Assembly: GCA_036405135.1 (NCBI GenBank)
Contig: DASWYF010000034.1
Coordinates: 62,001 to 126,000, forward strand
DNA length: 64,000 nt
Reading direction: 5' to 3'
Origin: Verrucomicrobiia bacterium
GTDB taxonomy: Bacteria > Verrucomicrobiota > Verrucomicrobiia > Limisphaerales > JAEYXS01
Below, one piece after another: positions 28,512 to 32,556 of this stretch. A program made the translations under genes and the position numbers. The notes below the pieces were generated by a model. The model was not told the origin of the DNA and did no database searches. It was given only the letters and a program-made list of their open reading frames with translations. How positions within the stretch are numbered: the first letter of the stretch is position 1; the number at the start of each line of letters is the position of its first letter.

Positions 28512-30107
28512 TCAGTTGATCGCCATCGTCAGCAGGAATTCGATGTTGCTGCGCGTCTTCTTCAGCTTGTTCAGCATCAATTCCATCGCCTCGACCGGCG
28601 GCACGCCCGTGAGCGCACGACGCAGCATGACCACGCGGCCGTATTCGTCCGGATGATACAGCAGCTCTTCTTTGCGAGTGCCGGACAATTCGATGTTGAT
28701 CGAAGGGAATATGCGCCGGTCCACCAAATGGCGGTCCAAGTGAACTTCCATGTTACCTGTGCCCTTGAACTCTTCGAAGATCACTTCATCCATGCGGGAG
28801 CCGGTATCCACCAGCGCCGTGGCGATGATCGTCAACGAGCCGCCCTCTTCGATGTTACGGGCTGCACCGAAGAAGCGCTTCGGCTTGTGCAACGCGTTCG
28901 CATCCACACCGCCGGACAGGATCTTGCCGGAGTGCGGTTGCACCGTGTTGTAAGCGCGTGCGAGACGCGTGATGGAGTCGAGCAGGATGACGACATCCTT
29001 CTTGTGCTCGATCATGCGCTTGGCCTTCTCGATCACCATCTCAGCCACTTGCACGTGACGCTCAGGCGGTTCGTCGAACGTAGAAGCGATCACTTCCGCC
29101 TCACGGCAGGTGCGCTCCATGTCCGTCACTTCCTCAGGACGTTCGTCGATGAGGAGAATGAAGAGGTAGCACTCAGGATTGTTCTTGATGATGGCGTTCG
29201 CCAGCTTCTGCATCAGCACCGTTTTACCCGTGCGAGGCGGAGCGACGATCAGACCGCGGCTGCCTTTACCGATCGGACAGACCAAGTCCAGCACGCGTGT
29301 GGAGTATTCTTCCGAACCGGTTTCCAAGAGGAAACGCTTGTTCGGGAACAACGGCGTGAGGTTGTCGAAATGCGTCTTGTCCTTCGCCTTGTCCGGCTCT
29401 TCGTGGCCGACAGATTCCACTTTCAACAGAGCGAAGAAACGTTCCTTTTCTTTCGGCGGACGGATCTGACCGGCGATGATATCACCGGTCTGCAAATCAA
29501 AACGGCGGATCTGCGAGGGCGACACGTAGATGTCTTCCGGGCAAGGCAGGTAATTGAAGCTCTGCGAGCGCAGGAAGCCGAAGCCTTCCGGCAAGATTTC
29601 CAGCACACCTTCGCCGAAGAGGATGCCGTTACGTTCGGCATTCTTCTGCAGGATCTGGAAGATCACTTCGTGCTTCTTCATCGTGCCGAAGTTCTCGATC
29701 CCCATCTCCTTAGCCATCTTGTTCAGCTCACCGATGGCCATCGCCTGGAGCTGACTGATGTTGATGCGGATCTGCGGCTGTCCCGGGTTGGTATTACGCG
29801 GAGCCTCTTCTTCGTAATGCTCTTCCACCGCATGCTTCGGCGGTTCCAATTCATCAGAAGAAGAAATCTTCCGCGAAACTGGTGCAGGAGCAGGTGCGAC
29901 TGCTCTGGGAGCCGGAGCCGGCGCTGCGGGCTTCACCGGAGCGGGTGCGGGCGGAGCTGTGGGGACAACTTTGACGGGTTCTGGCTCCGGAGCAGGTGCT
30001 GGGGTTTCCACTGCTTCCGGTGCTTCAATCAATGACGGCTGTTCCGCTTCAGGTGCGGACGCTTTCTTTGCTGCTTTCTTAGCAGCCTTTTTGGGTACTC
30101 GTGCCAT
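28512..30107 (-). CDS. rho: Transcription termination factor Rho with low-complexity N-terminal extension
   Basis: Hexameric RNA helicase of 531 aa; the E. coli protein is about 419. The first 110 residues are Ala/Lys/Pro-rich ([16 protein letters not shown], then Glu/Pro repeats), followed by the Rho N-terminal helical domain ([18 protein letters not shown]). Next come the RNA-binding cold-shock-like domain ([15 protein letters not shown]) and the ATPase with P-loop [25 protein letters not shown] and the arginine finger region [22 protein letters not shown] 30107 is chosen because it begins the Lys/Ala extension. A further in-frame ATG at 30155 with AGGG upstream would add 16 residues encoded by a hairpin. 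The order downstream of the fusion gene raises the question of attenuation. Confidence 0.95.
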
Positions 30108-30119
30108 ATGTCTAAATGC

Positions 30120-30155
30120 AAAAAATGCGCCAGTGCTTAACCGCGGCTGGCGCAT
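30120..30155 (-). terminator. Terminator-like hairpin with U-run just before rho (possible attenuator)
   Basis: On the minus strand, ATGCGCCAG (30155-30147) and CTGGCGCAT (30133-30125) form a 9-bp perfect stem with a 13-base loop, directly followed by TTTTTT (to 30120). The rho ATG is 12 bases further on. It either ends the operon coming from the fusion gene or acts inside the rho leader. A second hairpin with a GNRA loop (CGGTA-GCAA-TACCG, around 30220-30245) lies upstream. Confidence 0.7.
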
Positions 30156-30268
30156 ATATTGACCCTAATGCCGAGAATCTGTTCGAGATCCGCGTATTCG
30201 GGGATTTGTTGGTGACTGAACGGTATTGCTACCGGGGGTTCAGTGCGGGGTTCCTTAATACCACACGT

Positions 30269-32458
30269 TTAGTATGGCAGTGGGAACTTGGCGGTTAAGC
30301 GCTTCACACGTTCGCGCACAGAGTGTGCTGCGTCAATGTTTTTTATGTCTTTAAGCACTTCGCTGATCATGTCGGCGATCTCCGCCATTTCAGCCTCTTT
30401 CATGCCGCGAGTAGTCACGGCCGGTGTGCCCAAACGGACGCCGCTGGCCTGGAACGGCGAGCGTGTCTCAAAAGGAATCGTGTTCTTGTTCGTCGTGATG
30501 CCCGCTTCATCGAGCGCGATCTGGGAGTCCTTGCCCGTGATGCCCTTGGCACCCACGTCCACCAGCATGAGGTGGTTTTCCGTGCCACCGCTCACGAGGC
30601 GGTAGCCGTTCTTGATCATGCCCTGTGCGAGCGCAGCGGCATTCTGCACGATCTGCTGCTGGTAAGATTTGAACGTCGGCTGCAGAGCTTCCTGGAAGCA
30701 AACTGCTTTCGCGGCGATGACGTGCATGAGCGGCCCGCCTTGAATGCCCGGAAACGCCTGCGAATCAATCTCTTTCTGATACTTCGCCTTGCACATGATC
30801 AGGCCGCCGCGAGGTCCGCGAAGGGTCTTGTGCGTGGTCGTCGTCACGAAATCCGCATACGGAACCGGACTCGGGTGAATGCCTGCAGCGACGAGACCCG
30901 CAATGTGTGCGATGTCTGCCAGCATGAGCGCGCCCACCTCTTGCGCGATCTCGCTCATGCGCTTGAAATCAATGATGCGCGGGTAAGCGCTCGCACCCAC
31001 CGTGATCATCTTCGGCTTGTGCTCACGGGCCATCTGCGCAAGTTGATCGTAATCGATGCGCTCGTCTTCCTTGCGCACACCGTAGTGCACGATCTCGAAG
31101 AACTTGCCGGAGAAATTCGCCTTGTTGCCATGGGTCAAGTGACCGCCGTGGCTCAAGTCCATGGTCAGCATCTTGTCACCGGGCTTCAGCATGGCGAAGT
31201 AAACGGCCATGTTTGCACCGGAGCCGGAGTGCGGTTGCACGTTCGCGTGTTCAGCCCCGAAGAGTTGTTTGGCGCGATCGATGGCCAACTGCTCCACCAA
31301 GTCCACATTCTCGCAACCACCGTACCAGCGCTTCGCCGGATAACCCTCGGCGTACTTGTTCGTCAACACCGAGCCTTGCGCTTCCATCACGGCGGGGCTG
31401 GTGAAGTTTTCGCTCGCGATGAGCTCGATGTTTTCCTGTTGGCGTTGGCGTTCCTGACCGATCAATTTGGCGATCTCAGGGTCCACTTGGGCGAGGGTCT
31501 GGGCCGTAGGGCCGCAGCACGTAGAAGCAGTTTTCTCCATCTTATTTACTCGTCTTTCATGCCGTCCGCCTTCAAAGCGGGCGTTCAAAAATGTATCCAC
31601 GATGCGCTTGGCCAGCTCGGTGGTCACCAGCTTCTCACCGAGACAAAGCACGTTCGCGTTATTATGCTGGCGGCTGAGCGCAGCCATCTCTTCATTGAAA
31701 ACCAAAGCGGCACGGATACCGGGCACCTTATTCGCTGTGATGCTCATGCCCACACCGGTTGTGCAGACCAGAATGCCTTCATCCGCCTGATTCCTCACGA
31801 CGCATTGTGCGACTGCATGCGCGAAGTCCGGATAATCCGTGGATTCAGTGGACAGTGTACCTAAATCTTCCACCGTCATCCCCTGCTCTTGCAGATGATT
31901 CTTGAGCGCTTCCTTCAACTTGAAACCACCGTGATCAGAACCGATTGCTACTGTCTTCTTCATGGATGCGTGAACCGGAGCCGCTGCGGCTTCCGTCTGT
32001 TCAATAAATTTTACTGCGGACTTCACGCCCGCTTCGATCTCGTCACGGCACATCGCGTAGACGTGATAGGGCGAGCCGATGGGGTCGGAGATTTCTTTAT
32101 CGTAACCTTCCACTGAATCATCAAACTCGCGGAGCAGGAACGCCTTCTCTGCCGCATGTGGATACATGTAGATCAGGCTATCCAGATGGCTCTGGGTCAT
32201 GCCGAAGATGTAATCCGCCTGATCTACCAACTGGCCCGTCACCATGCGGCTTGTCTGCCGGGAGATATCGATGCCCTTCTCGCGCATCGCGGTCACGGAA
32301 TGCGTGCTGGGTACCTGGCCGTTCATCGCCCCGACACCCGCGGAGATGATGCGAAAACCCTTCCGGTTTTTCACCGCGTCACGGAAGAAACCTTCCGCCA
32401 TGGGACTGCGGCAAATGTTCCCGGTGCAAATCACCAAAATTGTAATCTCGCCAGCCAT
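30269..32458 (-). CDS. Tripartite fusion: YwlE/LMW phosphatase, RpiB isomerase, serine hydroxymethyltransferase GlyA
   Basis: One uninterrupted frame of 729 aa joins three complete enzymes (residues counted from the TTG at 32461). Residues about 7-155 are a low-molecular-weight phosphatase with P-loop CTGNICRS (C12, R18) and acid D126 in SDPIGSP, as in YwlE arginine phosphatases, but with Ile where YwlE has Thr. Residues 167-305 are RpiB ([26 protein letters not shown] with C233, [10 protein letters not shown], ending FEGGRHERR). Residues 308-730 are GlyA ([16 protein letters not shown] lysine K545 in [10 protein letters not shown]). The joins have no extra linker; GlyA keeps its own Met (codon at 31540), so internal initiation is possible. 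It lies on the same strand as the purine genes. Confidence 0.9.
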
Positions 32459-32556
32459 CAAAGTCGTTAAAAGTGGGATGCTAACGCCGAATCGTCAACG
32501 GCGAAATCCCGTTGTCGTGAGAATGTTTAAATTGACTCTACCGCCCCGGGGCAACC

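Follow-up and report, generated by a model that had tools for sequence, protein, structure and literature searches.

A structured rho leader in a Limisphaerales bacterium whose last hairpin may act as an intrinsic attenuator

The rho gene found in a 64,000-nt stretch of contig DASWYF010000034.1 (hereafter the window), from a Verrucomicrobiia bacterium of the order Limisphaerales, is preceded by a structured leader whose last helix, H3, may double in the window as a leaky intrinsic attenuator. We consider this reading about evenly balanced between being right and wrong. Under it, rho would be transcribed from its own promoter, P1, which comparison with related genomes places within the 3' end of glyA, and the leader is predicted from sequence to fold into helices H0 to H3 within the genus. 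The conserved role of H3, the last of these helices, would be structural. Its six-T tail suggests that H3 most likely also stops a fraction of the rho transcripts before the gene in the window, though not clearly in its congeners. Before the 3' arm of H3 exists, its loop could already be paired with the 5' end of the leader, so that the terminator may be delayed or competed with.

How much factor-dependent termination takes place in a cell is set by Rho, yet few phyla have been studied for how rho itself is controlled. If H3 works as proposed, intrinsic termination would feed into the Rho level in this lineage, for which we found no published map of either.

A terminator-like hairpin directly upstream of rho

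The rho gene (28512-30107, minus strand) encodes a protein of 531 aa with the Pfam domains Rho_N, Rho_RNA_bind and ATP-synt_ab and starts with the ATG at 30107. H3 (30125-30155, minus strand) was identified by folding, terminator score and consensus fold, and consists of a 9-bp perfect stem with the 5' arm ATGCGCCAG (30155-30147), a 13-nt loop CCGCGGTTAAGCA (30146-30134) and the 3' arm CTGGCGCAT (30133-30125). A run of six T can be read from the sequence after the hairpin (30120-30125, minus strand), and five of them are unpaired because one T closes the stem. The T-run stops twelve bases (30119-30108) short of the rho ATG and the distance from the end of H3 to the start codon is 17 nt. The first-pass annotation, which had described a perfect 9-bp stem and six T lying 12 bases before rho, was therefore accurate, with five of the T free to form the tail. 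The folding energy of H3 alone is -18 kcal/mol; together with its flanks it gives a folding z of -3.2 against shuffles, with an equally good fold obtained in 1 of 200 shuffles.

Sites with a perfect stem of at least 7 pairs followed by five T were observed three times on both strands of the 64 kb, where shuffles average 0.6. They include H3 and the ordinary intrinsic terminator 3' of rho (28486-28456, minus strand), which has a 12-bp stem, was detected by both a consensus scan and the score, and is used here as a yardstick. A d'Aubenton-Carafa-type score d reached +12 to +21 for H3 and +6 for the terminator after rho. The G+C-rich stem and U-run of H3 are thus above chance in the window, the only genome where this was observed, and together with the score they argue for an attenuator. 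The consensus scan itself missed H3 because it permits loops of 8 nt at most. Covariance models of Rfam gave no match to the leader at gathering score, the weak sub-threshold matches being to eukaryotic families only. A search of the 5.8 Mb genome found the rho leader/H3 element in single copy, and a dispersed repeat was thereby ruled out.

Conservation of the hairpin and of its tail

Two other genomes of the family, G001 and G002, were compared and both belong to the genus of the window. H3 was found in the same place in both, so that it is kept in 3/3 genomes of the genus while the flanking leader sequence has diverged, and in G002 an A-U pair is replaced by a compensatory G-C pair (CCAG/CTGG to CCGG/CCGG). 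This conservation also favors the attenuator, with the covariation amounting to one double change because only three genomes carry H3. The tail behaves differently from the hairpin. The TTTTTT of the window becomes TAATTTTTG in G001 and TATTTTAC in G002, and is interrupted in both; the d score of H3 falls to about -20 in the two congeners and fails there. The hairpin and U-run are therefore not conserved together in close relatives. Across the order, the best terminator of each rho leader scored above 0 in 1/86 leaders, as compared with 2% of shuffles, and an order-wide terminator before rho was rejected since the leaders are at chance level without enrichment.

Both the interrupted U-tract of the congeners and the lack of terminator enrichment in the order count against the attenuator. 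Since the T-run is broken in the congeners and the order-wide scores equal those of shuffles, the terminator is at most a property of the lineage of the window. The proposal that H3 terminates transcription in the rho leader consequently holds by score in the window, whereas both T-run and score are lost in the congeners; likewise, the comparison with relatives that had been suggested for hairpin and T-run recovered the former within the genus but not the latter. H3 as a control point on rho is plausible but lineage-specific.

A hairpin that is conserved next to a T-run that is not would also be expected if H3 were purely a structural element of the 5' UTR, with the six T having arisen by chance within a U-rich tract and terminating inefficiently. 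It might, for example, keep an AU-rich, SD-less start region open or stabilize the mRNA, and the 20 nt 5' of the rho ATG were indeed observed to be A/T-rich throughout the order (72% A+T). However, the hairpin and tail of the window score at least as high as the terminator after rho. We regard a solely structural role as a real but less probable possibility than attenuation, and the best of the alternatives.

Structure of the leader and possible Rho-dependent termination

Folding showed the rho leader of the window to be strongly structured. RNAalifold applied to the three genus members gave 48 pairs, 4 of which have a kept double change, and the helices H0, H1, H2 and H3 are common to all three. 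H0 (30250-30287, minus strand) extends across the glyA stop codon and its changed pairs are kept in the three-genome consensus fold. H1 (ACTGAACCCCCGGTAGCRATACCGTTCAGT; 30215-30244, minus strand) is near-invariant within the genus with every pair kept, and H2 (CCC..GGAT..ATYC..GGG; 30163-30202, minus strand) is also part of the consensus fold. The order-wide consensus structure of 34 leaders retained only a short 5' helix (GCAAG..CTTGC). Leaders of the order share the sequence boxes CTCCCGGT, TTTGAAC and CGTCCAAT. Boxes CTCCCGGT, CATTCCAATTTGAAC and CGTCCAAT were observed at about -140 to -70 from the rho ATG across the order.

E. coli and B. subtilis are established cases in which Rho attenuates its own gene by Rho-dependent termination (PMC6582626, PMC12350095), and the arrangement proposed here resembles it in that premature termination in the 5' leader would limit rho expression. 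The appeal of the first-pass annotation to autoregulation of rho in other bacteria is correct as to its existence, but the known cases act via Rho-dependent termination rather than an intrinsic hairpin (PMC6582626, PMC12350095), whereas the signal seen in the window consists of an intrinsic hairpin and its T-run. The same precedent suggests that Rho-dependent termination in the leader might autoregulate rho here as well, with H3 only pausing or protecting. Such a mechanism could use a moderate C-over-G stretch of the leader (30 C and 13 G in 78 nt) with the conserved ACCAAC..TCCCC, which is unpaired between H1 and H2. The C-over-G bubble is nevertheless ordinary, being reached by 16% of segments drawn at random from the window; at this 84th percentile no strong rut signature was found in the rho leader. 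The strong structure of the leader also speaks against this mechanism, which we consider less likely than not.

A conserved predicted promoter within the end of glyA

Rho proteins were located in 58 relatives and then in 187 genomes of the order, and the promoter analysis was made on 86 non-redundant readable rho upstream regions of the order. A sigma-70-like motif, TTGAC-N17-nAnnnT, was observed 180-250 nt 5' of the rho ATG in 78/86 leaders, while the flanking control windows gave 0-1 matches, one in total. In the window the motif is found at -229. Its predicted -35 element (TTGACG; 30336-30331, minus strand) lies inside the 3' coding end of glyA and is separated by a 17-nt spacer from the predicted -10 element (GAACGT, with the order consensus CAnnGT; 30313-30308, minus strand). 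These positions would place the rho transcription start near 30301 and give a leader of about 194 nt.

As judged by tblastn, glyA is present directly upstream in 70 leaders and absent in 16, and the P1 motif occurs in 64/70 and 14/16 of them, respectively. Conservation of P1 even without glyA upstream is a further argument for the attenuator. In leaders without glyA upstream, the roughly 40 bases after the P1 motif often still resemble the glyA end (GAACTGACTGCAAGATTTCCC). Since this stretch resembles glyA where glyA is absent, it seems that its function at the promoter and the start of the leader, and not coding, has kept it in place. Loci that lack glyA and keep P1, often with the glyA-like sequence of about 40 nt, include L018, L023, L030, L168, L174, L199 and others. 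Upstream of rho, 20 genomes of the class that fall outside the order lacked both glyA and a P1 between -180 and -250, with one stray match at -292. The order-wide presence of P1 inside the glyA 3' end, and its persistence without glyA, provides a handle on rho expression in this group.

The upstream gene is the last part of a single 730-aa open frame (30269-32461, minus strand) in which low-molecular-weight phosphatase, RpiB and GlyA (SHMT) domains were recognized, and P1 is within its 3' end. The frame linking the end of RpiB to GlyA was observed to be open in G001 and G002 too. H3 begins 114 nt past the glyA stop codon and is the sole terminator-like site found in the gap between glyA and rho by the consensus scan and the stem/T-run score. 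H3 might then simply terminate the phosphatase-RpiB-GlyA unit, with partial read-through into rho and no regulation. We think this improbable, as the conserved P1 lies upstream of H3 and a terminator of the glyA unit would stop the transcripts of rho's own promoter too. As in an attenuator, the predicted promoter is 5' of the terminator in one leader, and the earlier claim that rho transcripts starting upstream must cross H3 is supported because the conserved predicted P1 sits upstream of the hairpin.

Possible pairing between the leader 5' end and the H3 loop

The predicted leader opens with GCTTAACCGC (30291-30300, minus strand), and a segment of the H3 loop (GCGGTTAAGC; 30135-30144, minus strand, kept in G001) is its exact complement over 10 nt; we refer to this potential pairing as P0. 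When leader 5' ends were compared with the last 75 nt, 10 matched bases were reached only in the window and G001 among 78 leaders, and a cross-species control of 6000 pairings gave P(>=10) = 3.3e-4. The complement is hence an outlier, which adds to the case for attenuation. The H3 and P0 states were calculated at -59.8 and -57.6 kcal/mol in the window (difference 2.2), -57.4 and -54.9 in G001 (2.5) and -64.8 and -60.5 in G002 (4.3). Folding of the growing transcript forms P0 first and H3 once the 3' arm is made. That the two states are 2-4 kcal/mol apart in three genomes, with P0 available first, is in line with an attenuator, and the models suggest P0 as a possible kinetic antiterminator or pseudoknot.

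The evidence against this pairing, and against the attenuator with it, is that the loop complement is weakened in G002, where one additional U in the loop reduces it to 6 contiguous pairs with one bulge, and that order-wide the leader 5' end shows no significant pairing with the sequence preceding the ATG (p = 0.14). A switch based on P0 is put forward tentatively because its 5' site doubles as coding sequence of glyA and H3 is present in just three genomes. We find it doubtful that the 5' end of the leader, by pairing with the loop of a terminator directly before rho, forms an in-cis RNA switch setting Rho levels. If it did, intrinsic termination would tune Rho, the factor of the other termination system. 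The motif CTCCCGG, able to pair with the leader 5' end, was noted in L025, L148, L167 and L172.

Riboswitch and T-box style attenuators combine an intrinsic terminator with a competing antiterminator. The window leader resembles them in that two near-isoenergetic, mutually exclusive folds are predicted near its 3' end, but it is without a ligand domain, an Rfam family, a leader peptide or a conserved terminator tail. In Salmonella the SraL sRNA is reported to protect the leader of rho (Silva et al. 2019, reviewed in PMC6582626). By base pairing with this leader 5' of the ribosome site it keeps transcription from terminating prematurely, as might happen here; SraL is a trans-acting sRNA, whereas the possible pairing here is in cis, between the leader 5' end and the hairpin loop.

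The in-stem ATG

Translation from an ATG within the stem (30155), using AGGG as ribosome site, had been proposed to open the hairpin and so control folding; an open frame does run from 30155 to rho in the window, but G001 and G002 have TTG or CTG in place of this codon, a 2-nt insertion shifts the frame in G001 and AGGG forms the 3' arm of H2, so that with the ATG absent in both congeners and AGGG belonging to another helix this proposal is unsupported and very improbable. No other leader ORF was conserved in the comparison of the window, G001 and G002, nor was a conserved ORF found to overlap the hairpin as in leader-peptide attenuators. An alternative start or leader peptide was rejected for lack of conservation of the in-stem ATG and the frames.

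A second Rho and the scarcity of terminators

Canonical hairpin-plus-T5 terminators are scarce in the window, at three in 64 kb, and this scarcity may reflect a heavy reliance on Rho. The genome also encodes a second Rho of 375 aa (L033:1471-2598; G000:C22:92976-94058), which is 52% identical to the first over residues 164-526. It starts approximately where the RNA-binding domain begins and is without the N-terminal stretch that carries Rho_N in the first protein. Of the 58 relatives searched, most had a comparable second copy.
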